NCBI RefSeq assembly: GCF_900177385.1
Contig: NZ_FXBJ01000002.1
Coordinates: forward strand, 62,001-126,000
Direction of reading: 5' to 3'
Source of the DNA: Carnobacterium iners
Lineage (GTDB): Bacteria > Bacillota > Bacilli > Lactobacillales > Carnobacteriaceae
Length of the DNA: 64,000 bases
The position numbers and the translations under genes are program-made. The notes beneath the pieces are model-generated. The model was not told the origin of the DNA, searched no databases, and was given only the letters and a program-made list of their open reading frames with translations. Positions 32,415 to 59,638 of this stretch are shown piece by piece; position 1 is the stretch's first letter; each line of letters begins with the position of its first letter.

Positions 32415-33043
32415 CTATAAATTCCAGTTGAAAGGATAGTGATTTATAAAAAAAAATAAAAAGTACAAATTATTTAAGATAGATTATTTCTCTAAAAAAC
32501 TATTATACGATTCTTTCAAAAACAAGAGAATTTGCTATTTTTTATTTTTGGGAATCGTCTTAGATAAAGAGAATAAACTAATGGTGCCATTTCAAAATAT
32601 AAATCAATAAAAAAAAGAAGAAAGAGAAAAATCATAGCATTTAAGCTTTATTCTTCTGTTCTTTTTATTTAGATGCTCATAAGAATGTTCGAATTTGTAA
32701 GGATAATACAAATAATATTTATGTAATTAATAAACTCTTATCTGCTACTCTCTAGTATTTCCCATAATGAGAATAAAGCAGTTATAAGTTTGTAGGCGTA
32801 TTTATTTAAAATATAAAATCCGTAAATTTCAAGTTTAAGTTAGCCACCCATTATTTTTCAGCTATGTTATCTTTGTTTAGAAAGAAAACTCAATTTTAGA
32901 GGTATACTTTCTTCTCATGCTTTTATTTACGATTGAAGAATATGTTTACCCTGTATTTTTTTGACTATTTTTGTTAATTTTGATTATTAGTTACATCACC
33001 TCTATAAAAATAATTCTGTATAAAGGCGAATTAAATTAACTAG
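32415..33043. other. 630-bp AT-rich stretch without a gene
   Basis: No reading frame over this stretch shows recognisable protein sequence on either strand. It separates the DndD relic from the DUF1541 lipoprotein gene and probably marks the deletion that removed the rest of the phosphorothioation operon. Confidence 0.5.
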
Positions 33044-33096
33044 CAAAAAAAGAATACAGCTCTTTTTTTTGAAAGAGAGCTGTATTCTTTTGCGAG
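33044..33096 (-). terminator. terminator after the DUF1541 gene
   Basis: On the minus strand AAAGAATACAGCTCT and AGAGCTGTATTCTTT form a long stem, with TTTTTTTGC following. It is strong and may act in both directions. Confidence 0.8.
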
Positions 33097-33153
33097 TTAA
33101 AGCTGTCCCTATATTTTATCCTGATATAAAATTTCTAGTTATAAATACTGATC

Positions 33154-33774
33154 TTATTCTTTTGATAGTTCGTCTTCTGTAAACCATTTATGGTTCGTAA
33201 CGGTTTCTCCACCGCTTGTTGGCTCATAGTCTATCATATACACCGTAGTATCTTCAAAGGAATCAATGGTGGCTGATGCACCCTCCATTCCTGCCATGTG
33301 TTTTGCTTCTACTATAATCTCTGTTCCTGGTTCCAAAGGTTTTTCTTGATCTTTAGTTCCAGCAATTTCTTCTTGAATAACCCATTTGTGGTTCTCTACT
33401 AACTCATCACCATTTGTAGGTTGAAACGTTAATTCATAGGCAGTAGTATCAAAAGCTCCTACTATTGTTGCAGTTGCACCTTTCATTCCTGGCATATGAT
33501 CTGTTAGCAAAGTAACCTGGTCGCCTATTTCATATTCTGAATTTTCTGCTTCTTGTAATCCTACTGGAATTTCACTTAAATCGTCATGCTGCATACCTTC
33601 CATGCTTTCAGTTTTACTTTCGGTTTGAGAGTTACTACTCTCCATAGTTGGCATACTTGATTGTGTACCTCCATCAACAGCTTCTTCATTTTCATTGTCT
33701 TGGGATGAACAAGCAGTTAGTACTGTTAAAATAGTTAAAGTTAATACTCCTTGGATAACTTTATTATTCTTCAT
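33154..33774 (-). CDS. YdhK family lipoprotein (DUF1541, two repeats)
   Basis: The 206-residue protein has a signal sequence with lipobox VLTACS, a Ser/Met/Glu-rich linker and two DUF1541 repeats. The repeats are GDQVTLLTDHMPGMKGATAT with ENHKWV and GTEIIVEAKHMAGMEGASAT with TNHKWF. His, Met and acid residues in each repeat (DHMPGM, KHMAGM) suit metal binding, and the family often lies with copper or heavy-metal resistance genes. It stands alone here, next to a resolvase, which points to an accessory cargo gene. Confidence 0.88.
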   Translation of the reverse strand: MKNNKVIQGVLTLTILTVLTACSSQDNENEEAVDGGTQSSMPTMESSNSQTESKTESMEGMQHDDLSEIPVGLQEAENSEYEIGDQVTLLTDHMPGMKGATATIVGAFDTTAYELTFQPTNGDELVENHKWVIQEEIAGTKDQEKPLEPGTEIIVEAKHMAGMEGASATIDSFEDTTVYMIDYEPTSGGETVTNHKWFTEDELSKE

Positions 33775-33940
33775 AATTTATCTTCCTTTCTTTTATGAAC
33801 ATTCTCAAACTTAACTTATAGTTTAATTTTTCCATATAAAAATGTCAATTTAATAGTCTTAATCAGAACTAGACTCTGGACGTTCTGTCACCTTCATAGA
33901 AAAATTGAAATAAAAGATCCGTATTTAGGATTATAATTAA

Positions 33941-34078
33941 TTATTTCCAAAAACAAGTGTTTTTGGTAATATGTTTTTCTAAAGACCAATTTATTAGAAA
34001 ACATTATAAAGTCAACTTTCTTAATATTACCAAAAACAATATCCATAATTATTACCAAATACCATTACATATAAGAGA
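33941..34078. promoter_or_regulatory. possible resolvase binding (res) region
   Basis: The 140 bp before the resolvase gene hold several inverted repeats. CCAAAAACAAGTGTTTTTGG (33947-33966) is one. TGTTTTTCTAA faces TTAGAAAACA over a 17-bp centre, and TACCAAAAACA-type half-sites follow. Serine resolvases of the Tn3 type bind such paired sites next to their own gene. The assignment rests on position and repeats only. Confidence 0.45.
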
Positions 34079-34169
34079 TAAATGGTAAAATTAAATTAAG
34101 TTGTTCTAAAAATCAGAGAATGACTTTATTTACATACATAATAAAAAAATATCTTAAAGAGGTGAAATC

Positions 34170-34781
34170 ATGCGAATTGCCTATGCCAGAGTATCGACGG
34201 ACAAACAAGAACTTTATCGTCAATTGGACGCTTTAAAAAAAGTTGGTTATGATAAGCTGATTCAAGAAAAATTTACAGGTACTCAAAAAAAACGTGCTGG
34301 ATTAGATAGCTTATTTAATACCGTCAGACCAGGAGATATAATTATTATCGAATCGATTAGTCGATTGGGTAGAAAGACATTAGATATTCTTTCTACAGTT
34401 GAAGAATTAAAAGAGCAAGGAGTAGAAATCATTTCATTAAAAGAAAATTTAGATACCTCTACACCTACTGGTCAGGCTATGTTTCAGATGATGGCTGTAA
34501 TTGCTCAACTGGAACGCGATCTGACAGTACAACGTGTAAATGAAGGCTTAACGTCAGCTAAAGCGCGCGGTGTGAAGCTTGGTAGACCGAAAATGGGTAA
34601 ACAAAAAGTAAAAGATGCTTTAAGACTATATGATTCAGGCCAATATTCTGTTAAAGATATTATCAGAATAACTGGTATCTCTCAAGGATCGTTATACCGA
34701 AAGCTAAAAGAGAGAGAATCAAAAATGCTTTTATTTGATATAAAAAACAAACTAAAAAAAGATGAAGATCAGAGCTCTTGA
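34170..34781 (+). CDS. serine recombinase (resolvase/invertase type)
   Basis: This 203-residue recombinase has the catalytic serine in ARVSTDKQ (Ser9) and IIIESISRLGRKTLDIL, with active-site arginines. A long E helix and the C-terminal Hin-type HTH (YSVKDIIRITGISQGSLYRK) follow. The size and layout fit Tn3-family and plasmid resolvases that act on res sites, not the large phage integrases. GAGGTG precedes the ATG. It flanks the restriction-modification cassette on the left, and a decayed resolvase flanks it on the right. Confidence 0.93.
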   Translation: MRIAYARVSTDKQELYRQLDALKKVGYDKLIQEKFTGTQKKRAGLDSLFNTVRPGDIIIIESISRLGRKTLDILSTVEELKEQGVEIISLKENLDTSTPTGQAMFQMMAVIAQLERDLTVQRVNEGLTSAKARGVKLGRPKMGKQKVKDALRLYDSGQYSVKDIIRITGISQGSLYRKLKERESKMLLFDIKNKLKKDEDQSS

Positions 34782-35165
34782 GCTACTATCCTTCAGTTTT
34801 TTTAGTTTGAACTATTTGTATTTATCTTAACTAGAATAAATACAAAAAAACCAAATTCTTTACTTTTTCTAATACTATCTTTTTTTGCTTGTTTTCCTGT
34901 TTGAAGAAGTATCTCTTAAAACGAGTTAATAAAATTATCTATATTAAAATAAAACGACTCATTAATATAGAATTCATTATATATTTATTTGAGGTTTTTT
35001 TAGTACGAATTATAATTTATAAAAAATACGCATAAACTAAAGTCGTTTTAAATTTTATTGTATTTGATTATCTAGAATGTTATCATAATAGATGTATTTC
35101 GTGTTTTTTTACTCATAAAAGAATGATAAGCATCAGATAAATGAATAATACAAAGAGGTGTTATA
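34782..35165. other. 384-bp control region of the restriction-modification cassette
   Basis: A stem TTTGTATTTAT / ATAAATACAAA lies at about 34816-34845. A 10-bp inverted repeat, TAAAACGACT at 34950-34959 and AGTCGTTTTA at 35041-35050, lies 80 bp apart just before the promoter. The HTH-bearing methyltransferase downstream might use these as operators. No gene is seen. Confidence 0.4.
35058..35086 (+). promoter_or_regulatory. promoter of the restriction-modification operon
   Basis: TTGTAT (35058-35063) and TATCAT (35081-35086) are 17 bp apart, about 80 bp before the methyltransferase start. It is a moderate sigma-A promoter. Confidence 0.45.
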
Positions 35166-36641
35166 GTGGTATACGAATCAACTGATGAAGTTTCTAAAAA
35201 ATGGGGCATCTCCCCACGTAGGATTGCTACCTTATGTCAAAATAACAGAATCAATGGGGCTAGAAAAATTGGGAAAACATGGTTGATTCCTAATTATATC
35301 GAAAAACCACTAGATGGAAGGAAATCAAAAAACAATATGAACTTACATGATTTATACAAAAAAATGGAAGAAGGATATAATGTTATTTATCCTAGTCAAG
35401 ATGGTGCTACTTACACAAGTCCACTAAATTATTCAGATGATTTATCTAAAACCAGACAAAGATGGTATAGATATAAAGAAGGATATTCTATTGAATTAGT
35501 TAAAAAGATTATAAGTGACTACTGTGAAGGTGATAATTTACAAATATTAGATCCTTTTTTAGGAAGTGGATCAACAATAATTGGAGCTAATTCTATTGGA
35601 CACAGAGGGATTGGATTTGAAGTAAATCCTTTTTCTAATTTTTTATCTGAGTGTAAACTTAAAAATTATACTATTGAAGAAGCGGAACTCTTTAATAGTA
35701 CTTATAAAGAAATAATTGAAGAATCGAAAGACAGTTCATTAGATTATTCTTTACCTGATTTATCGATTTCAAATAAGGTTTTCGATATAGAAGTAGAGCC
35801 TTTTTTTATGAAAATCAATTTTTTAATTAAGGAAAGAAATATTCCCCAAAATGTTAAGAACCTTCTTAAATTAGGCTGGTTATCTGCTCTTGAAATAGTT
35901 TCATTATATAGAAAAGCTGGGAATGGCTTAAAAAAAAGAAAATCACCTAAATCAACAGTAACAACAATTCTTGAAACGGAAGTAGTTTTGAGAAAGAACT
36001 ATGAAGATATTTATTCTGATATAGTAAATAATACAGAATTGAAGTTTGATGCAAAAATAATCAATGATTCCAGCTTAAATATGTCATCATATATAAATGA
36101 TAACAGCATTGATGCCATTATTTTTTCACCTCCCTATGCTAATTGTTTTGATTATACAGAAATTTATAAGTTAGAATTATGGTTTGGAGATTTTGTCAAA
36201 GCATATTCTGATTTGAAAGTTTTGAGATCTAGCTCTTTACACTCGCATCTTAATGGGATATCTCAATTAACAACAAATGCCATCATCGAAAAAAACGACC
36301 CTCTTTTTCTCCTTTTAGAGGAATTGAAAGGTCGAGAATTATGGGATAAGAAAATACCTGTAATGTTGGCTCTTTACTTTTTTGAGATGAAAGAAATTAT
36401 AAAAAAAAGTTATGATGCTTTAAAGACAAATGGAGTATGTGCGATTGTTGTGGGTAACTCTGCATATGGTGGAGTGATTTTCCCAACTGATTTACTTCTC
36501 GCTAAATATGCTGAAAACATTGGATTTAAAGTTGATAGAATTGAAGTAGATAGATATATTATTACGAGCTCTCAACAGTATGAGAAAACGAAGAAATCAA
36601 AACAATATTTAAGGGAGAGTATCTTATGTCTAGTGAAATAA
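35166..36641 (+). CDS. DNA methyltransferase with N-terminal HTH domain (cassette M1)
   Basis: The 491-residue protein starts at GTG 35166 behind AGAGGTG. Residues 1-50 form an excisionase-type HTH (EVSKKWGISPRRIATLCQNN). The methyltransferase follows: motif I ILDPFLGSGSTIIGAN (about 122-137, SAM binding) and motif IV IIFSPPYANCFDY (about 318-330, catalytic SPPY). The SPPY form is that of N4-cytosine or N6-adenine enzymes. Its C-terminus overlaps the second methyltransferase by 16 bp. The HTH fusion suggests self-regulation of the cassette. Very AT-rich. Confidence 0.88.
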   Translation: MVYESTDEVSKKWGISPRRIATLCQNNRINGARKIGKTWLIPNYIEKPLDGRKSKNNMNLHDLYKKMEEGYNVIYPSQDGATYTSPLNYSDDLSKTRQRWYRYKEGYSIELVKKIISDYCEGDNLQILDPFLGSGSTIIGANSIGHRGIGFEVNPFSNFLSECKLKNYTIEEAELFNSTYKEIIEESKDSSLDYSLPDLSISNKVFDIEVEPFFMKINFLIKERNIPQNVKNLLKLGWLSALEIVSLYRKAGNGLKKRKSPKSTVTTILETEVVLRKNYEDIYSDIVNNTELKFDAKIINDSSLNMSSYINDNSIDAIIFSPPYANCFDYTEIYKLELWFGDFVKAYSDLKVLRSSSLHSHLNGISQLTTNAIIEKNDPLFLLLEELKGRELWDKKIPVMLALYFFEMKEIIKKSYDALKTNGVCAIVVGNSAYGGVIFPTDLLLAKYAENIGFKVDRIEVDRYIITSSQQYEKTKKSKQYLRESILCLVK

Positions 36642-37885
36642 TCAGTGTAAAGAATCTACCTAACAATCCAGAAAAAAACGGAACTTATTATATAGAACAA
36701 GCCAGTCCCAATACGTATACTCATGGGTTTTTTAAATATCCTTGTAAATTTATTCCTGAGATTCCAAGATGGAGTATTAAAAAGTATGGGAATGAAAAAG
36801 ATATAAATATTTTCGATCCTTTTGCTGGTTCTGGAACAACTTTATTAGAAGGTATATTATTAGGTAATAACACGTATGGTACTGAGATAGATCTCGTAGC
36901 AAAAAAAATTATTAAAGCCAAAACTAATTTGTTTTCAATGAAAGATATTCAAGATGTTAAATATATATATACAGAAATAATTAACAAAGTAGAAAAAGAA
37001 GAAACTGTTATATATATTCCCAAAATAAATAATTTGGATCATTGGTTTAATAAAAATAATTTAGAGGTATTAGGCAAGCTGAAGACCTCTATTGATGAGA
37101 TCAACAACGAGACTATTAAACTCTTTTTTGAAATTTGTTTTATTTCAATCATAAAAAAAGTTTCTAATGCTGATGACTCTTCACCTAAACCATATGTTTC
37201 TAGGAAAATTATCAAGACTCCTCCTGATGCACTAAATGAATTCAAAAAAACATTTTTAAGATACTTGTTAATGGAACAGGAAATGGTTGAAGAAAACATA
37301 ACTAACATTTGTACTATTATTGAAGGAGATGCATTGTATTTTAAAACAAAAATAAAATTCGACTTAGCTGTGACCTCTCCTCCGTATATAAATGCTTTTG
37401 ATTACCCTAGAACAATGAGGTTAGAAAACTTATGGCTCGAAACCATAGACGAAGATATGATAAGAAAGTCAAAAAAAGACTATGTAGGAACAGAACAGAT
37501 AAACGTAAAAGAAGAAAGTAATAAACTGGATATTCTTAATAATTCTTCAATTTTAAAAGAAATTTATTATCAAATAGCTGAAATAGATTTGAAAAGAGCA
37601 TTAATTGTTAAGAAATTTTTTGAAGACATGGAAAAAAATTTAATATCAGTAAACAAATCATTAAAAGAAAACGGATATTATGTTATTGTTATAGGTGACA
37701 GTACAATCAGAAAAATAAACGTTCCTAGCTGGAAAATCATCAAAGAAATAGCTCTAAAAAACGGATATTCTTATGAAACAAACTTCTCTTATGTTATTAG
37801 AAATCCTTACATTAGATTTCCACGCAATAATAAAGGAGGAAAAATTAGTTCTGATTGTGTGTTAGTCATAAAAAAGGAGAGTTAA
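36626..37885 (+). CDS. DNA methyltransferase (cassette M2)
   Basis: The 419-residue enzyme opens with HGFFKYPCKFIPEIPRWS, the N-terminal motif of beta-type DNA methylases. Motif I NIFDPFAGSGTTLLEG follows at about 59-74, and the catalytic LAVTSPPYINAFDY at about 249-262. It has the same layout as M1 but no HTH. Two different methyltransferases beside one endonuclease usually mean an asymmetric recognition site, one enzyme per strand. ATG 36626 has AAGGGAGAG upstream and overlaps the M1 stop. Confidence 0.9.
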   Translation: MSSEIISVKNLPNNPEKNGTYYIEQASPNTYTHGFFKYPCKFIPEIPRWSIKKYGNEKDINIFDPFAGSGTTLLEGILLGNNTYGTEIDLVAKKIIKAKTNLFSMKDIQDVKYIYTEIINKVEKEETVIYIPKINNLDHWFNKNNLEVLGKLKTSIDEINNETIKLFFEICFISIIKKVSNADDSSPKPYVSRKIIKTPPDALNEFKKTFLRYLLMEQEMVEENITNICTIIEGDALYFKTKIKFDLAVTSPPYINAFDYPRTMRLENLWLETIDEDMIRKSKKDYVGTEQINVKEESNKLDILNNSSILKEIYYQIAEIDLKRALIVKKFFEDMEKNLISVNKSLKENGYYVIVIGDSTIRKINVPSWKIIKEIALKNGYSYETNFSYVIRNPYIRFPRNNKGGKISSDCVLVIKKES

Positions 37886-37886
37886 T

Positions 37887-39665
37887 ATGGCACAAAAAAA
37901 TAGAAGTAAAGAATTATGGTTAGTACCAAAAAGAAGTAGCATACATCAGACTATATGTTTAATAGAAGGTATTGTTGATAGAAATTACAATGGAAAATCC
38001 TGGGATGCTTCGAAACAAAATAATCTTGGAGTGAATTTAAAAAATAGAGGGGCTACTAATAATGGTAGAAATATATCTGATCAATCTATCCGTACTCTTT
38101 TAGCTTTACCACAATATCTTGGTCTTTTATATATTAATTCCAGTTCTACTCCTAATACAATAAATCTTACCAAAGCCGGAGAAAAAATATTGGATATGCA
38201 TAGAAATAATTTAGTTAAAATTCCTAATTTAAAACAGGGTGGTGATTTTTTAATTACAGAATCATCCGTAGTTCTTGAACAAATGGAAAAACTAATAATT
38301 ACTAATCCTATAATATTAAAAGATTGTGAGAATATTTTATTGTTTCCTTTTAGGATTACCTTATATCTACTAAGTAAATTAATTTATTTAGATCGAGAAG
38401 AAATAGGATATTATTTATTACGAATAAAGGAAGAGTCTGAAAAAGATTTAGTAATTCAAGAAATTAAAAATTTTAGAGATTTAGAACTTGAAAAAAGATC
38501 CAATTTAATGACAGAGTATAAAAAAACACATATAGGAAATATTACTTTAGTGAAAGCCCCCTCTGCTTCTTATTTCGAATCTATTTTAGAAGCTACAGGT
38601 ATTATTGAACGAATTAAAGTCAAACCTAACAATAGAAAAAATAAGTTGCCTGCAATAAAAGTAAAAAAAGAATTTCAAACTTATGTAGAGAGTGTTATAA
38701 ATAAAAAGTATCAGGACGCAGAAATCTACGATTTTGGTAAAAATGTAGATTTGTGGATTGATTATATTGGAGACCCTAGTAGACTATTTCCACCAATAGC
38801 TATTACAATAACTAATAGCTTGAAAAAGAGTTTTTTAATAAATATAGAAAAAGAAAATCACATAATATTTATTGATTTAATTGAAGAAAATGGTTTAATA
38901 GAATTGCCAATGTTTCCTAATGAGGAATACATACTATCTATTATTAGTATAGAAGACGGAACTGTTTTAGAGAGCATACATTTTATTCCGACATTTTCAA
39001 ATAGAATAATAACTATCTCAACAATTTCTTCTATGAAAATAACAGAAATTCCTAAATTAACGTACAATCAACAATTTAACTTGATAAAACAAAAAATAAT
39101 TAGTCATTCAGAAGCAAGTAACTTTAGTGGAGAATTTTCGAATTATTTAAACGTTTTATTGAAAAGTACTGGTGTTGATAAAACTAGTGATAAATCATTG
39201 CGAGGAGGGTACTATGAATATTTATTTTATAGTATTCTGAACCTTATGAAAAACGAGGAGTTAATAGATGATGTAGTCTGGAATGGAAGAATAGGTAAAT
39301 TTGGTCTTCCTGTCGCTGCTCCAGGAGGAAAGATAGGTACGCCTGATATAGTATTTACCATAAATGGAATACACTATGTTTTAGAATTAACTACAATCAA
39401 AGCTAAGAGTTTTCAACAAAAAGCCGAAGTTCCTTCAGTCATTGATCATGTTCGAGTTTATAAGGATAATATTATAAGAGGTTATAGTGTTGTAGGGATA
39501 TTTAGTGCCCCTTTAATTCATGATAGAAATAGTACTGTAATGAAACATCTTTTAAATGAGAATAATATTGAGTTTATTGGAATTACAGATAAAGACTTAT
39601 TGGAGTTATTTGATTCAAAAAATAAAGATGAGCTTATCGAGAAAATTCTAAAAGTAATTTTATAA
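37887..39665 (+). CDS. restriction endonuclease, AlwI-like
   Basis: This 592-residue protein starts 1 bp after the M2 stop with GGAGAG before the ATG. SKELWLVPKRSS begins the N-terminal DNA-binding half, and TLLALPQYLGLLYI, LTKAGEKILDM match the AlwI/BspD6I family as I remember it. The nuclease centre is near the end: GTPDIVFTINGIHYVLELTT, a PD-(D/E)xK-like arrangement with Asp (in TPD) and Glu (in LELT). AlwI relatives cut a few bases beside short asymmetric sites such as GGATC or GAGTC. The target here is unknown. Confidence 0.75.
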   Translation: MAQKNRSKELWLVPKRSSIHQTICLIEGIVDRNYNGKSWDASKQNNLGVNLKNRGATNNGRNISDQSIRTLLALPQYLGLLYINSSSTPNTINLTKAGEKILDMHRNNLVKIPNLKQGGDFLITESSVVLEQMEKLIITNPIILKDCENILLFPFRITLYLLSKLIYLDREEIGYYLLRIKEESEKDLVIQEIKNFRDLELEKRSNLMTEYKKTHIGNITLVKAPSASYFESILEATGIIERIKVKPNNRKNKLPAIKVKKEFQTYVESVINKKYQDAEIYDFGKNVDLWIDYIGDPSRLFPPIAITITNSLKKSFLINIEKENHIIFIDLIEENGLIELPMFPNEEYILSIISIEDGTVLESIHFIPTFSNRIITISTISSMKITEIPKLTYNQQFNLIKQKIISHSEASNFSGEFSNYLNVLLKSTGVDKTSDKSLRGGYYEYLFYSILNLMKNEELIDDVVWNGRIGKFGLPVAAPGGKIGTPDIVFTINGIHYVLELTTIKAKSFQQKAEVPSVIDHVRVYKDNIIRGYSVVGIFSAPLIHDRNSTVMKHLLNENNIEFIGITDKDLLELFDSKNKDELIEKILKVIL

Positions 39666-39845
39666 TTCTGAAGATATGTGCGTTTTGCTTTACTGTGTTA
39701 CAAACTACGATAAGATATACATGCACACACTTATAGTATCATTACTATGATTTTTAGTTCTATTAATTTTAATTTCAGCTCTTTCGAAGTGTTAATTGAC
39801 CTATTGGTAATAATAGGGTTAGTTAGATTAGTAGGAGGGATGTTT

Positions 39846-39917
39846 ATGAAATTAATCTTTGGCGAGGGAAAAACGTATAAACGAGATGAAATCACCTTAG
39901 AATTAAATAGTAACTAG
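39846..39917 (+). CDS. 23-residue open frame overlapping a tRNA-like element
   Basis: ATG 39846 is preceded at 7 bp by TAGGAGGG and reads MKLIFGEGKTYKRDEITLEL then NSN and a stop. The ribosome site is among the best in the cassette. The frame runs into the tRNA-like structure at 39882. It might be a leader peptide, or the first codons of a gene cut off by insertion of another sequence. I do not recognise it. Confidence 0.3.
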   Translation: MKLIFGEGKTYKRDEITLELNSN

Positions 39918-39965
39918 TATTTTAAGTAGTGCTTAATACGTGAAGGTTAGAATCCTTCCATCTCG
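39882..39965 (+). other. tRNA-like element (84 nt)
   Basis: CGAGATG (39882-39888) pairs with CATCTCG (39959-39965), exactly as in a 7-bp acceptor stem. Directly before the 3' arm is GAAGG-TTAGAAT-CCTTC (39942-39958), a 5-bp stem with 7-nt loop in T-arm geometry; the loop resembles TTCGAAT with one change. The D and anticodon arms are not convincing: ACTA/TAGT with a 10-nt loop is the best match to an anticodon stem. It could be a decayed tRNA, a phage-type tRNA or an integration-site relic. Confidence 0.45.
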
Positions 39966-39971
39966 ATATTT

Positions 39972-40020
39972 AATTCAAAAAAAAGGGAGCTGATTTTAGC
40001 TCTTTTTTTTTTTTGAATTA
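39972..40020 (+). terminator. terminator after the restriction cassette
   Basis: GGAGCTGATTTTAGCTC forms a stem with a 6-nt loop, inside a longer AATTCAAAAA...TTTTTGAATT pairing, and a run of T follows. It ends transcripts from the cassette and the tRNA-like element. Confidence 0.8.
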
Positions 40021-40131
40021 AATTACTGTCCAAGAAAACATTTAAACAATCACATTCTGAATTAACTTTTGTAAACTAGAATTTCCTAATTCTTGATTGA
40101 GAATTGAAATATTTAAAACCATTAGTCTAAT

Positions 40132-40318
40132 TTATTTTCGATCAAGCTCTTTTAATAATTTGTATACTATAATTATAGTTTCTTCCTAAACGACCCAGTG
40201 ACTCTAGTAATAATGTATCTTGTTGTCTTAGAAACTTTAGAGTTTCTTTTAACTCTAATCATTATTTTTTAACTTTGCTCCGTTGTTGATATACCTAGCT
40301 ATCCTTCGTATTATCCCC
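40132..40318 (-). pseudogene. decayed serine resolvase fragment
   Basis: On the minus strand two parts of a resolvase can be read: IARYINNGAKLKNND (as in IARVST..Q.L.NQ) and, after a gap and frame change, LELKETLKFLRQQDTLLLES followed by LGRLGRNY. The end resumes in a third frame as LLKELDRK. The catalytic serine has been lost (ARYIN in place of ARVS). It is about 60 residues of an original of about 200. It is related to, but not the same as, the intact resolvase at 34170. Its place on the far side of the cassette is suggestive. Confidence 0.65.
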
Positions 40319-40412
40319 TATTCCTAAACCATTTAATAGACACTTATAATCCACACTACAAATATAGTGAAATCAATAATCGTCATTGTCTATTATGGGT
40401 ATACTTAAATCA

Positions 40413-40479
40413 GACTATAGTTGAAATAATTTTCAACTATAGTAAAAGAGGTCAGGATTTTTTATCCTAACCTCTTTTG
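40413..40479 (-). terminator. two hairpins, terminator of the beta-glucoside operon
   Basis: AAAAGAGGTCAGGAT (40444-40458) pairs with ATCCTAACCTCTTTT (40464-40478), directly after the operon's stop on the minus strand. A second perfect stem, ACTATAGTTGAAA with TTTCAACTATAGT, lies at 40413-40443. Confidence 0.75.
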
Positions 40480-54085: not shown

Positions 54086-54394
54086 TCTCTTTTAATCAAA
54101 TACATCTTTTTACAGATTGCTTTTCTTAACGTTACTACTTTATGTATTAAGTATCGGTCTTTGTATCTATCTGTTAGTAATTTCATCTGGTCTCTATCAT
54201 CTCTCAACTTTAACAGCATTATAAAAAAAACAAGGAATGGAAGAAAACCATTTATTAAAAATAGAATTTGTTTTATACATATCCATGTATTATGTCTTTT
54301 TTATTGGTCTTGGATGAGTCATCTGAGTTCAGTATAAAAGATTTTTTTCTTTTCGAATAATTTAAACAAATTCGTGAAACAATTAATATTTCAG

Positions 54395-54816
54395 ACAGCA
54401 CTAATGTAACTAAATGAAGCTAAATCATCTGGCGCAGATAAAACAGATGTTATGGGTGAAGACTGGAAGGAAGCATTTGGTGAAAAAGTCGATTTGCTAT
54501 TGATTCTGCAGGCGCAGCAACATTAAACAATTCATTAAGCACATTAAGACTTGGTGGAGCAATCGTTTTATTTGGTTCATCTACTGGTGATAAAGTAGAA
54601 TTTAATTTACGTAACTTCTTTTATCGGCAGCACACATTAAAAAGCATTACCATGGGGAGTCAAGCAGAATCAGAAGAAATAATAGCGTATTCTTAAAAAC
54701 ATACTATCAGACCACTAATCGACAAAGTTTACGATTTCGAATATTATAAAAAAGCTTTTGAACGAGTAGGCTAAGCAAAATAAACGGGTAAATTTATATT
54801 AAAATTAGCAGACTAA
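54395..54816 (+). pseudogene. zinc-type alcohol dehydrogenase/quinone oxidoreductase gene, C-terminal relic
   Basis: The plus strand reads NEAKSSGADKTDVMGEDWKE, a one-base shift near 54505, then DSAGAATLNNSLSTLRLGGA, IVLFGSSTGDKVEFNLRNFF, PLIDKVYDFEYYKKAFERVG and GKFILKLAD. This is the cofactor-binding C-terminal part of a medium-chain dehydrogenase. Three in-frame stops follow the shift. The first half, with the catalytic zinc ligands, is missing. Confidence 0.8.
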
Positions 54817-54949
54817 CTTATACCGCTATTACGACAAAAAGACAAACGATTTCATTCGGCATATTACATAAGCACGTATTAAAGAGGTATAAAAAAAAGA
54901 ACCCACTCTGAGGAAGTCAAAATTCAGAGGAGGTCAAATCTGAACATAG

Positions 54950-55633
54950 TTAGAAAACGTTATTATCGAGTGTATTATGTGTATTTAATTCAGTGATTTT
55001 ACCTGATTCAAGATAAACAATCCATTCGCATAAATTTGTCACGTAATCGCTGATACGTTCCAGATTTCCGGCTACAAAAATGTAATTAGCTGCACCAAAT
55101 ATTAACTCAGAATCTTTCTTCATTTCATTCAATGTTCTTTTTTGTAATTCGAAAGCAAGCTGATCGATTTTGTCGTCTTTTAGAGCAATTTTTTTAGCTT
55201 CTGTTACATCTGCTTCGATGAAAGCAGTTAAAGAACGTTCAACTAATTTCTTAACTTTTTCAGCCATTACCGCCAAGTCATTTTCAATATCCAAATTCTT
55301 TTTATTCCCTTTAACACGAATCGTTGCTTTGGCAATGTTAACCGCATGGTCTCCCATACGTTCTAAATCGGCACAAGCCTTCATGATGGTAATGATACGA
55401 CGTAAATCACTGGTTACGGGCTGTTGCAAGGCAATGAGCTCAATAGATTTGGTTTCGATTTTTACTTGTTGTTCATTGATTAGGTGATCGTTATTCACGA
55501 CTTTTTCAGCTATGGCTTTGTCATGGGCAACAAATCCCTTAACAGATAGATAGATTGATTCAGATACCATTAATCCCATCTGGTAAAACTGTGAATGCAG
55601 ACTGTTTAGTTCTTCTTCGAATACTTTTCTCAT
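54950..55633 (-). CDS. phoU: phosphate signalling protein PhoU
   Basis: The product is a 227-residue, all-helical protein with two PhoU repeats. Each has the acidic motif used for metal binding (ERMGDHAVNIAK and ERISDYVTNLCE). It links the state of the Pst importer to the PhoR-PhoP system and restrains phosphate uptake. ATG 55633 is chosen over the in-frame GTG at 55645 because GAGGTGG sits between them. It is the last gene of the pst operon. Confidence 0.96.
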   Translation of the reverse strand: MRKVFEEELNSLHSQFYQMGLMVSESIYLSVKGFVAHDKAIAEKVVNNDHLINEQQVKIETKSIELIALQQPVTSDLRRIITIMKACADLERMGDHAVNIAKATIRVKGNKKNLDIENDLAVMAEKVKKLVERSLTAFIEADVTEAKKIALKDDKIDQLAFELQKRTLNEMKKDSELIFGAANYIFVAGNLERISDYVTNLCEWIVYLESGKITELNTHNTLDNNVF

Positions 55634-55699
55634 GAAATAGACCACCTCTTATTTTTTTGAACTGTTATGCGTTTATTTGATTCTACTGACATTTGCTGT

Positions 55700-56473
55700 T
55701 TAACCGAACTTACCTGAAATATAATCATCTGTTCGTATGTCCTTAGGATTGGAATACATTTTTTCTGTTGAATCAAATTCAATGATTTCTCCATTTAAAA
55801 AGAAAGCTGTTTTATCCGATATTCGAGCAGCTTGTTGCATGTTATGTGTGACAATGATAATGCTGTAATTTTTCTTGAGTTCATGAATCAAGTCTTCTAT
55901 TTTGGCAGTGGATAACGGATCGAGCGCTGAGGTTGGTTCATCCATCAGTATGACTTCTGGTTCTACAGCTAAAGCTCGAGCGATGCAAAGACGTTGCTGC
56001 TGACCTCCAGAAAGACTAAAGGCATTTTCACTTAATCTGTCTTTTACTTCATTCCATAACGCAGCACCTTTCAAGCCTCTTTCAACAACCTCATCTAGCG
56101 TCTTTTTATCTTTAATCCCATGAATACGGGGTCCATAAGCGACATTGTCATAGATGGATTTCGGGAAAGGATTGGGTTTTTGAAAAACCATCCCAACCTC
56201 TGTACGTAAAGCTTCTACTTTAGCGTCAGATTTAAAAATGTCCTCATTGTTATAGTGGATGGAGCCTTTCATTTTTACAGAAGGAACGAGCTCCACCATT
56301 CGGTTTAATGTTTTAATAAATGTTGATTTACCACATCCAGAGGGTCCAATTATTGCAACAACCTGTTTTTCAGGTATATCAATTGAGATATCTTTTAGTG
56401 CCTGTGTATCACCGTACCATAAGTTGAAATTTTTGACGGAATAGACAGACTGAATAGTTTCTTCTTTATTCAT
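55700..56473 (-). CDS. pstB: phosphate ABC transporter ATP-binding protein
   Basis: The 257-residue ATPase has Walker [14 protein letters not shown], the PstB-typical [11 protein letters not shown], the signature [16 protein letters not shown], Walker [14 protein letters not shown] and [13 protein letters not shown]. It drives phosphate import through PstC and PstA. It lies 16 bp after pstA with TAGGAGG before the ATG. Only one pstB copy is present here, although many Lactobacillales have two. Confidence 0.97.
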
Positions 56474-56488
56474 TATTTACCTCCTACA

Positions 56489-57367
56489 TTAATAACGTTT
56501 TGAGTATTTATTACGAATAGCAATAGCCAGCGAATTCATCGCAATTAAAATAATGAGTAAGACTATGCTTCCGGCTGCGGCTACTGCTTGAAACTCTGCT
56601 TGGGGTCTGCTTGCCCAGCTGAAAATTTGAATAGGTAACACAGTAAAGCCATCTAATACGGAAGTTGGGGTATAGGCAATAAACGTCATTGCGCCAATCA
56701 TCAACAGAGATGCTGTTTCACCGACACCTCTAGATAAGGATAGAATCGCTCCAGTTAATATTCCGGGTGTGGCTGCTGGAAGGACAACGGTTCGAATAAT
56801 CTGCCATTTGGTTGCACCCATTGCATAAGCGGCCTCATACTGTTCTTGTGGAATAGATCGTATGGCCTCTTTTGAAGCGACGACTATGACCGGTAAAATA
56901 AGCAGAGACATGGTTAATCCTCCAGCTAAAATACTTCTACCCATTCCTAATATTCGAACAAATACTGTCAGACCAAGTAAACCAAATACAACGGAAGGCA
57001 CTCCTGCTAAGTTTGCTATATTCAGTTCGATAAAACGGGTAAATTTATTTTTCGGTGCGTATTCTTCTAAATAAATGGATGTACCCACACCTAATATTAG
57101 AGAAACTGGTATCGTGATAGACATAACCCAAATAGTTCCGAGGATTGCAGCTTTAATTCCCGCATCTTCAGGTCTTCTTGATGCATAATTAGTGAAGAAA
57201 TCAGTATTTAAATAGCCAATCCCTTGCGTAACAATTCGTATAATTAGAGTAGCTAGTACAATCATCCCAAAAAGAGTAGCTGTAAAGAAAATTCCTTTGG
57301 CCAGTTTATTTTTTGTAATTCTTTTAGATATTTGTTTTTCATCAGGTACAACAATTTTGTTTTTCAT
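56489..57367 (-). CDS. pstA: phosphate ABC transporter permease PstA
   Basis: The 292-residue permease has six membrane segments and the EAA loop EAAYAMGATKWQIIRTVVLP that contacts PstB. FTNYASRRPEDAGIKAAILG before the second helix is typical of PstA. Its ATG overlaps the stop of pstC by one base (TAATG). Confidence 0.95.
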   Translation of the reverse strand: MKNKIVVPDEKQISKRITKNKLAKGIFFTATLFGMIVLATLIIRIVTQGIGYLNTDFFTNYASRRPEDAGIKAAILGTIWVMSITIPVSLILGVGTSIYLEEYAPKNKFTRFIELNIANLAGVPSVVFGLLGLTVFVRILGMGRSILAGGLTMSLLILPVIVVASKEAIRSIPQEQYEAAYAMGATKWQIIRTVVLPAATPGILTGAILSLSRGVGETASLLMIGAMTFIAYTPTSVLDGFTVLPIQIFSWASRPQAEFQAVAAAGSIVLLIILIAMNSLAIAIRNKYSKRY

Positions 57368-58296
57368 TAATAAACCTCCCTATATCGACGGGAAATATGA
57401 TTGGCAAAGACATTCATGACTAAAGTAAAGAGGAACAGAGTCATCCCTACCGCATAGATACTATAATAAATAGTCGACCCAAACGTTGCATCCCCCATGC
57501 TGACTTGAACTATATAAGCAGTCATTGTCTGAATTGATTCAGTGGGAGTAAAACCTAAGTTTGGTGTGGATCCTGCTGCAGTGGCGACAATCATTGTTTC
57601 ACCGATTGCACGTGATAGGCCTAAAACAAGCGAAGAAACAATCCCACTAAGTGAGCCGGGAATAACAATTTTCAAAGCAACTTCTAAACGTGTTGCACCT
57701 AAGGCCAATGCGCCATCTCGCATGGATTGGGGAACAGCATTCATCGCTTCTTGAGATAACGAAGTGATCTGGGGAATAATCATAATTCCTACAACTATAC
57801 CCGGGCTTAAGGCATTAAAAATAGGTAAATCTGTGACAAACGTTCGTAATAAAGGCGTAACAAACGTTAAAGCAAACAACCCATAGACAACTGTCGGAAC
57901 ACCGGCTAATACTTCCAAGATAGGTTTCAATACTTTACGTCTTTGATCACTGGCGTATTCACTCAAATAAACGGCTGCAGCTAAACCAATTGGGATAGCA
58001 ACTATCATCGCAATTACAGCAATGGTGAATGTGCCAGAAATTAATGGCCAAATACCATAACTGGGATCATTTCCGAAAAATGGGTACCATTCTGTGCCGG
58101 TTATGAAATCAATAAAAGAAACCTGCGTAAAAAACAAAAAGGTTTCTCTGAATAAAGTGAAAATGATTCCTACCGTTACAAGAATGGAGAGAGAAGCCAT
58201 GAGTAAAAATAAGTTAGGCATTAATTTCTCGATTTTATTATGAGAGGATTGTTTAGCTCTATTTTGTTTAATCCTTTCACGTATAGTTGATTGCAT
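57367..58296 (-). CDS. pstC: phosphate ABC transporter permease PstC
   Basis: The product is a 309-residue permease. ATG 58296 follows AAGGAGTG; the longer frame to 58332 has no site. Six hydrophobic segments are seen. The EAA loop is DGALALGATRLEVALKIVIP, and EWYPFFGNDPSYGIWPLISG lies in the first outside loop, as in PstC. With PstA it forms the phosphate channel. Confidence 0.95.
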   Translation of the reverse strand: MQSTIRERIKQNRAKQSSHNKIEKLMPNLFLLMASLSILVTVGIIFTLFRETFLFFTQVSFIDFITGTEWYPFFGNDPSYGIWPLISGTFTIAVIAMIVAIPIGLAAAVYLSEYASDQRRKVLKPILEVLAGVPTVVYGLFALTFVTPLLRTFVTDLPIFNALSPGIVVGIMIIPQITSLSQEAMNAVPQSMRDGALALGATRLEVALKIVIPGSLSGIVSSLVLGLSRAIGETMIVATAAGSTPNLGFTPTESIQTMTAYIVQVSMGDATFGSTIYYSIYAVGMTLFLFTLVMNVFANHISRRYREVY

Positions 58297-58438
58297 GATG
58301 TAACACTCCTTAAACATAGGCAAAATGTCCATCGAGTGAGTCCGCGATGGATATTTTGCTGGATATTAATCTTTGTTATAACTATTTCTTACAAGTTTTT
58401 AATAGTAATCACTGATTTTTTCTGAAAGTTATAAAAAT

Positions 58439-59380
58439 TTATCTTAAGCTTTCAAGCGTTTCTAGACCCTCTGTATAAATGGAATCATCAAGCGCTACGT
58501 ATCCAACTTCAGTAGCCATTTCTCCGGCCATTTCCAATGTATACTTAGCAAATTCATAAGCCGTATCATTTTCTACAATAGATTCATTATTTACGTAGAA
58601 GAATAACGGTCTAGATAGAGGCTCGTAAGTGCCGTCTTGAACGGTCTCATCTGACGGTGTTATGACTTCCCCATTATTATTTTCGATGGGAACAATTTTA
58701 ACGGTATCTTTATTTTCTACATAATATGCATATCCAAAGTAAGATAATGCATTTTCAGATCCTTTAGTACCTTGAACCAGCACGTTATCGTCTTCTGATA
58801 AAGACGCTTCTTTATTAATTTGCTCTCCGTCTAAGATGATTTCATCGAAATAATCGTATGTCCCGGAATCTGCCCCTGGGCTAAACAATAGAATTTTTTC
58901 ATCTGGCCAGCCTTCTCTTACATCTGCCCATGTTTCGACGTCACTTTCTTCTAACCAAATGGATTTTAGTTCGTCAAGAGTTAAATAATCTACCCAATCA
59001 TTTTCCGGATTAACAACGACTGATAATCCGTCAAGAGCTATTTGAAATTCAGTGTACTCAATGCCTGCGTCCGCAAGCAAAGCAGCTTCTTCTTTTTTCA
59101 TTGGTCGAGAAGCATTCGTGATATCTGTTTCTCCAGCGATAAATTTTTCCATTCCTCCGCCAGTTCCTGATACACCAATAGTTGCTCGAGCTTCTGGGTT
59201 TACAATAGAGAATTCTTCAGCTACGCCCTCCATAATTGGAAAGACGGTTGATGATCCGTCAACCTGAACTGAACCAGTAATGCCTTCAGTTGTTTCGTCA
59301 GTCGATGTGTTTCCACATGCTGCTAAGAGAAGTACCATACTTAGTGATGCACCAATTTTTGCCAACCCACTCATTTTCAT
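58439..59380 (-). CDS. pstS: phosphate-binding lipoprotein PstS
   Basis: The 313-residue protein starts at ATG 59380 (GAGGGA upstream), with the lipobox LLLAACG. The phosphate site is visible as VDGSSTVFPI, GVSGTGGGMEKF and SPGADSGTYDYF, whose Ser, Thr, Asp and Arg residues bind the anion. It captures phosphate outside the cell for PstCAB. It is first in the operon, 143 bp before pstC. Confidence 0.96.
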   Translation of the reverse strand: MKMSGLAKIGASLSMVLLLAACGNTSTDETTEGITGSVQVDGSSTVFPIMEGVAEEFSIVNPEARATIGVSGTGGGMEKFIAGETDITNASRPMKKEEAALLADAGIEYTEFQIALDGLSVVVNPENDWVDYLTLDELKSIWLEESDVETWADVREGWPDEKILLFSPGADSGTYDYFDEIILDGEQINKEASLSEDDNVLVQGTKGSENALSYFGYAYYVENKDTVKIVPIENNNGEVITPSDETVQDGTYEPLSRPLFFYVNNESIVENDTAYEFAKYTLEMAGEMATEVGYVALDDSIYTEGLETLESLR

Positions 59381-59457
59381 ATAAAATCCCTCTTTCTCTT
59401 TATAAGTTGAACATCTCCTGTTCATACTTTCATAATAAACGACTAACATTGATTCCA

Positions 59458-59485
59458 CGTAAATTGAATGTAAAGATTATGTAAA
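59458..59485 (-). promoter_or_regulatory. Pho box of the pst operon (three direct repeats)
   Basis: On the minus strand TTTACA (59485-59480), TTTACA (59474-59469) and TTTACG (59463-59458) are spaced exactly 11 bp apart. This is the pattern bound by PhoP in Bacillus and relatives (TTHACA repeats). TATTAT near 59434-59439 would be the -10 box. Low phosphate would switch the operon on. Confidence 0.8.
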
Positions 59486-59638
59486 TATTCATGATAGTTG
59501 AATTGGTGTGCAAGTATTTCTTATGTGAATATGCTTTATGTGACTTAAACTTAGTTAAATCACCAGGCTATTTAATCTGTCCTTGCTTTAAATAACACCA
59601 CTTTACAGGTCCTTAAAAACTTCGTTTTTCTTATGCCG

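Follow-up and report, generated by a model that had tools for sequence, protein, structure and literature searches.

The window analyzed here, a 64,000-nucleotide stretch of a 2.52-Mb contig from Carnobacterium iners (NZ_FXBJ01000002.1, positions 62,001 to 126,000), contains three consecutive genes, M1, M2, and R, which very probably form a horizontally acquired type II restriction-modification operon, likely of type IIS. All three lie on the plus strand: M1 (positions 35166 to 36641; 491 residues, GTG start) and M2 (36626 to 37885; 419 residues) encode amino-methyltransferases and overlap by 16 bp, and R (37887 to 39665; 592 residues), encoding an AlwI/BspD6I-like endonuclease, follows after a 1-bp gap. 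The open reading frames confirm the layout given in an earlier interpretation of the same DNA (the sequence-only reading), two SPPY methyltransferases and an endonuclease in one operon, and two methyltransferases with one endonuclease per operon are what is expected of a type IIS system. The AT richness noted in that reading is real, with a GC content of 26.5 to 29.1% over 35 to 40 kb, but the stretch at 44 to 51 kb of the window is equally AT-rich (25.6 to 29.5% GC), so this property alone does not mark an island.

Both methyltransferases matched PF01555 (E values of 4.9e-12 and 4.1e-14), and their SPPY motifs read FSPPYAN and TSPPYIN. M1 was assigned to the PADLOC MTase_II family PDLC03224 (E = 2.3e-108) and M2 to PDLC03362 (E = 1.3e-131). 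M1 also carries an N-terminal HTH_17-like domain (residues 1 to about 57), which scored under the Pfam cutoff; these 57 residues are 53% identical to a small free-standing helix-turn-helix (HTH) protein of enterococcal plasmids. The suggestion that two methyltransferases suit an asymmetric site is supported by the rule set out in the available part of PMC4081073.

A query of genome contigs with M1 matched 356 stretches, 295 of which encode a relative; the family results below rest on the best 80 stretches (79 loci), so they describe the closest members of a wider family. R was found by tblastn in 24 of the 79 loci, and 23 have the order M1-M2-R; L138 has R without an M2 of the window kind, and L101 and L102 are near-identical. 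Two alignments of R were built from these loci. Profile A3 has 24 rows, from loci found with the M1 alignment, and includes an McrB fusion (L122) and one truncated R; alignment A4 has 22 rows, R of the window plus 21 taken from the 24 R loci, and omits L102 (duplicate), L105 (other genetic code), and L113 (truncated).

R is a divergent relative of AlwI and BspD6I. It matched the PADLOC REase_II family PDLC03422 over its full length (E = 9.3e-175, profile positions 1 to 583 of 591), a profile that two RE_AlwI proteins of other genomes match weakly (E = 2.7e-7 and 1.8e-8). Searching PDB sequences with A3 at E values up to 1 gave five matches, all BspD6I, with N.BspD6I best at E = 1.5e-7, and the PD...E..TT segment of R aligned with BspD6I in this match. 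An AlphaFold model of R based on A4 had a pLDDT of 88.7. In a Foldseek search with this model, the first eight rows were BspD6I chains (E values from 1.1e-14 to 5.1e-13), followed by FokI and the small subunit of R.BspD6I. VIA-align superposed the model on BspD6I with a Z score of 23.5 over 427 residues at 17 to 18% identity; the structure search proposed in the sequence-only reading, run here on a predicted model, recovered the PD-(D/E)xK fold. The C-terminal domain of the model superposes on the small subunit, R.BspD6I2, with a Z score of 17.4 and a root mean square deviation (RMSD) of 2.3 over 159 residues. Three regions can be delimited: a recognition part (about residues 1 to 250), a β-strand region (about 303 to 383), and a PD-(D/E)xK domain (about 397 to 592), in which E444, D487, E500, and E514 are invariant across the 22 rows. 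E418A and D456A are named in the titles of BspD6I PDB entries, and the assignment of its catalytic residues is in part our assumption. Profile, predicted fold, and invariant acidic residues together bear out the AlwI-like PD-(D/E)xK endonuclease proposed earlier.

Several results weigh against this assignment of R. No Pfam family was matched at E values up to 1, and the curated RE_AlwI cutoff (PF09491) was missed. AlphaFold reached a pLDDT of just 34 from the single sequence, and the RMSD over the whole of BspD6I is 25, so the arrangement of the domains differs. R as a single sequence gave nothing significant against the PDB (best E value, 0.52).

The genes behind M1-M2 vary among the related loci and encode a cutter of the AlwI type, either of two kinds of McrBC-type machine, an HNH nuclease, a NO-VEIN protein, or no recognized cutter. 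The LlaJI-type set, a protein of about 250 residues followed by an AAA protein and a LlaJI-like protein, is present at six loci (L091, L092, L093, L103, L110, and L114); L091, the one on which Pfam was run, matched AAA_5 and RE_LlaJI (E = 2e-33). The second McrBC-type set, a reader of about 390 residues with an AAA protein and a nuclease partner, occurs at seven loci (L128, L129, L133, L135, L137, L143, and L158) and on a Cryobacterium plasmid, with Pfam run on L128 and the plasmid; L124 is similar with a different M2. In L122 the reader is fused to McrB, and its best PDB match was "5-methylcytosine-specific restriction enzyme B" (E = 8.9e-27). HNH nucleases were found on a Pseudanabaena plasmid (L062) and at L149, HNH_2 at L125, and a C-terminal NO-VEIN domain at L142; L094, L096, L097, and L120 have no recognized cutter.

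We lean slightly toward the view that a chassis of the methyltransferase pair and a BspD6I-type reader takes unrelated engines in bacteria and archaea, and that within the clade of the window different machines may police the same site. In profile-profile comparisons, residues 1 to 250 of R scored 94.9% (E = 4e-8) against the readers of about 390 residues, 93.5% against the N terminus of the McrB fusion, and 90.4% against the N termini of the HNH proteins; the match to the L125/L142 pair was less clear (53.7% over 51 columns). Against 13 reader-bearing proteins taken together, residues 50 to 202 of R matched with a probability of 96.7% (E = 4.4e-10), and this segment overlaps the one that matched BspD6I (residues 71 to 204). 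The rest of R, residues 251 to 390 and 391 to 592, gave at most 2.7% against ten proteins or sets of the other systems. As controls, five unrelated proteins gave 0.6% or less, 40 column shuffles of each of four targets gave 4.4% or less, and ten HTH proteins gave 0.4% or less. The N terminus of the McrB fusion touches Pfam RE_AlwI at 18.4 bits, below the cutoff of 23.1.

Some results speak against a common reader. A 13-row profile of the other readers found no PDB match, BspD6I included, at E values up to 10, and eleven single reader sequences scored between 0.1 and 82.5% against R. The LlaJI-type reader subunit scored 23% and 19.6% against the reader of R, and its single sequences 3.4, 4.0, and 0.1%; its best PDB match had an E value of 0.21. 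The resemblance of the LlaJI-type reader to that of R is suggestive only, and homology between them is not established.

A tree of concatenated M1 and M2 was built from 46 rows (the window, two plasmids, and 43 of the 79 loci), two of them without a cutter label. Loci without a clear M2 are omitted, as are L098, L102, L105, L111, L116, L130, L132, and L138, which are split, fused, or partial, duplicate another locus, use another code, or have no known gene following. Cutter type changes nine times on this tree, loss counted, where the minimum is four and the mean after shuffling is 21.2; none of 200 shuffles was as low. The LlaJI-type rows fall within a starred set of 23 rows, beside 14 AlwI-type rows and three cutterless ones, and starred branches force two cutter changes for them. 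We then compared the segments between motifs I and IV, presumed to be the target-reading part of the methyltransferases. Identity between the window and the LlaJI-type rows of the starred set is 37 to 41% for M1 and 34 to 41% for M2, nearly as high as that to AlwI-type rows of like divergence (37 to 44% and 34 to 53%), and the same DNA site may therefore be served by different machines. The values for the other cutter types are low (19 to 26% for M1 and 23 to 31% for M2), so their DNA site may differ.

Two further observations concern these loci. The LlaJI-type cassette looks mobile: a block of about 8 kb is 99.6 to 99.8% identical in L092, L093, and L114, whose hosts are two species of Clostridium and a strain of Erysipelotrichaceae; a Ligilactobacillus agilis copy is 89% identical. 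In L093 and L114 the left end of the cassette falls in the final 100 bases of a gene of the uracil-methyltransferase family; L091 too has its left end in a gene of this family, and in L092 it lies beside a large serine recombinase. The right end of the cassette is beyond the sequence covered. Separately, at L139, L145, L146, L150, L152, L155, and other loci an M1 relative stands beside a second large methyltransferase, several of these loci also carrying a protein of about 950 residues, and Pfam runs on L148, L150, and L127 showed ResIII helicase domains, apparently a further type of engine.

Acquisition from outside is supported by the distribution of R. No homologue was found in 58 other genomes, leaving C. 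iners the sole carrier among 59. In 398 genomes of the phylum and 398 of the class, the R family profile gave a full-length match in the window's own genome only and four further weak partial matches, among them L003 and L005, which are RE_AlwI proteins. Neither 72,556 plasmid records (at E = 1e-5) nor phages, viral contigs, or genome contigs (the last queried with R's own peptides) yielded a match to R, and M2 had none in viral contigs. Related loci are found in Lachnospiraceae, other Clostridia, Vagococcus humatus (nearest to the window, at 57%), and Mycoplasma testudinis, and in metagenome-assembled genomes of Paceibacterota, Omnitrophota, WOR-3, Actinomycetota, Rhodocyclaceae, and Woesearchaeota.

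We propose that M1 and M2 would divide an asymmetric site between them, each methylating one strand at an exocyclic amino group and most likely giving N4-methylcytosine (m4C), to judge from the SPPY motifs. The N-terminal winged-helix domain of R would read the same site when unmethylated, and its BspD6I/AlwI-type PD-(D/E)xK domain would cut beside it; the HTH domain of M1 probably tunes expression of its own operon. The operon would have landed in a chromosomal mosaic of plasmid leftovers, with fic-res-resolvase on its left and another resolvase on its right. Across the wider family, the M1-M2 pair stays and the cutter behind it is swapped (AlwI-like, LlaJI/McrBC-like, HNH, or NO-VEIN). The genes present, their homology and family distribution, the predicted fold, the conserved residues, and the cutter changes on the tree are direct results; m4C, the site, the cutting mode, the regulation, and the common target of different cutters are our inference.

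R might instead be a strand-specific nickase, or the large subunit of a heterodimer, rather than a dimerizing double-strand cutter. Its fold and profile match BspD6I, whose large subunit alone nicks DNA according to the available part of PMC4081073. We consider this unlikely: the window has no small-subunit gene after R, inspection by eye found no common gene behind R in the related loci, and a lone nickase would presumably be a weak barrier. Since there is no gene for a small second subunit, R probably acts as a transient dimer. That the operon is decayed or silent and retained for methylation alone is less probable still, and we regard it as very unlikely. In its favor, three of the 46 tree rows (L094, L096, and L097), placed among R-bearing ones, keep M1-M2 with no recognized cutter in the available stretch; in the window, however, all three genes are open and tightly overlapping, and the conserved acidic residues of R are intact.

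The flanks bear on how the restriction-modification operon arrived. On the left lies an intact small serine resolvase gene (34170 to 34781, plus strand; 203 residues; PF00239, E = 7.4e-41), preceded by a region (33943 to 34170, plus strand) with the core palindrome CCAAAAACAAGTGTTTTTGG at 33947 to 33966. The repeats noted there in the sequence-only reading make up a genuine res site, whose core CCAAAWACAAGTGTTTTTGG is kept in 11 of 12 aligned copies, nine exactly and two with one mismatch, and is absent from the copy in the sister genome G004. Outside the core most of the 12 copies diverge, those of the C17-4 plasmid, G011_C5, and G013_C3 being alike there. The block of res and resolvase (33943 to 34837) is 77 to 83% identical in DNA to five plasmids, Carnobacterium pCAR50, pWNCR47, pWNCR64, and pDC01-1 and Jeotgalibaca pMA1X17-3, whose resolvases are 87 to 93% identical to the left one. 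Neighboring genes differ among the plasmid copies except for fic and the genes preceding it, common to pCAR50 and pWNCR47. A remnant of the fic C terminus lies at about 32536 to 32670 (plus strand; tblastn E = 4e-5, one internal stop), and its counterpart on pCAR50 is 89 bp upstream of res. The suggested plasmid origin is borne out in part, for the left edge. On the right, the decayed resolvase fragment is also real: the remnant of a second, different resolvase and its upstream DNA occupies 40026 to 40430 on the minus strand, with two frames at about 40027 to 40258 interrupted by internal stops.

The stronger claim, that the two resolvases are the ends of a mobile cassette and moved it, did not hold up, and we consider it improbable, more so than a nicking R. 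Such a cassette would show what is seen here, an intact res and resolvase at its left side and a decayed resolvase at its right; the DNA to the left of res differs in most of the 12 copies as res-by-res exchange would leave it; and the G004 copy of the left resolvase is located at the junction of a rearrangement, about 2.5 kb past the left-flank genes. Its other neighbor there, aquaporin-like by eye, has its counterpart in the window's genome at a distance of about 970 kb. The two resolvases, however, belong to different families (29% identity, measured on L043, a fuller genomic copy of the right one), and neither the same recombinase nor the same site is found at both ends. The locus has one res core, and the sole other site in its genome, with one mismatch, is on contig C2 at a distance of 783 kb (up to two mismatches searched). 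In two sister genomes, resolvases of the right-hand family precede type I hsd genes, directly ahead of hsdM-hsdS-hsdR in G001 and with two genes between it and hsdM and hsdR in G004. The operon is absent from the five plasmid neighborhoods (8 kb on each side at most), which carry other cargo, as R is from the plasmid records, and small serine resolvases as a rule carry out resolution, not integration. No clean empty site turned up; in G004 the flanks are scattered, with the left flank at C1:1.105-1.110 Mb, a β-glucosidase relative at 1.776 Mb, and a pst-operon match at 1.726 Mb (genes named by eye). Orphan res-like palindromes were considered as integration sites and rejected, given their positions in the relatives' chromosomes: in L164, L165, and L167, from the relatives' genus g3, the palindrome, which resembles the res core, is found downstream of a DEAD-box-helicase-like gene, before the gene that follows, and in L168, L169, and L171 it is inside a conserved gene. 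We read the locus as a patchwork of plasmid fragments that has retained the restriction operon; its movement by either resolvase is unproven.

Other features of the window were noted. Between the fic remnant and res, a DUF1541 gene segment (32954 to 33919, minus strand) has a second, 96% identical copy in the genome (G000:C2:815125-816096), and one copy ends beside res. A decayed tRNA-like sequence follows R (39882 to 39966, plus strand; 25.0 bits against an Rfam threshold of 29); its acceptor and T stems pair, its middle is unclear, and ARAGORN called no tRNA there. In G001 (L041, 4514 to 18940), the copy of the left resolvase has a type I restriction operon on one side and an N6_N4 methyltransferase/PglZ gene set on the other. 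The pst-like genes (by eye) at 54836 to 59595 are 97% identical to G004, the other stretches matching G004 being 66 to 88% identical, and may reflect recent exchange between species. A repeat family at 54271 to 54406, also at about 11898 to 12516 of L039, has dozens of matches in the window's genome, and a minus-strand 16S rRNA gene has its 5' end at positions 1 to 127.

Classification of restriction systems usually goes by the cutter; here the marking enzymes and the reader would stay and the cutter be exchanged. If so, the family would be a natural matched set of enzymes with which to examine the benefit of an McrBC motor over a simple nuclease, and it would hint at how methyltransferase-associated McrBC systems obtain specificity. 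Its AlwI-like enzymes are a further resource, on which we found no experiment; as no named, tested relative was found, no recognition sequence is proposed.

Among known systems, BspD6I, BstNBI, and AlwI resemble R in the recognition part and C-terminal PD-(D/E)xK domain, in whole-chain fold, and in the acidic residues, and differ from it in sequence (17 to 18% identity, with no Pfam RE_AlwI match to R); for the β-strand region, the other matches listed were unrelated proteins. The two methyltransferases of AlwI are joined in one chain, according to the available part of PMC4081073, whereas the window has two separate SPPY enzymes. McrBC-like type II systems include LlaJI and BsuMI. The operon shares with LlaJI the use of two methyltransferases for an asymmetric site, presumed in the case of the window, and some M1-M2 relatives precede McrB-like and LlaJI-family genes, but the window's cutter is a single AlwI-like chain, and no AAA+ or McrC match of weight was found in the operon's three proteins. 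In the accessible parts of the sources, the LlaJI methyltransferases make 5-methylcytosine (PMC1459862), and LlaJI reads DNA through a B3 domain (PMC12707154). Bell et al. (2024) note methyltransferase-associated McrBC branches and defer them to a later paper (PMC11090510, as far as its available part goes), and the literature searched, part of it available as excerpts, gave no report of a common BspD6I-type reader with recurrent cutter exchange. The five plasmids have a res and resolvase like those of the window with different cargo beside them. The PADLOC families PDLC03224, PDLC03362, and PDLC03422 are the same as those of M1, M2, and R; its table labels them plainly as type II methyltransferases and restriction enzyme and gives no common reader or cutter exchange, and the window operon is a new member of these families.

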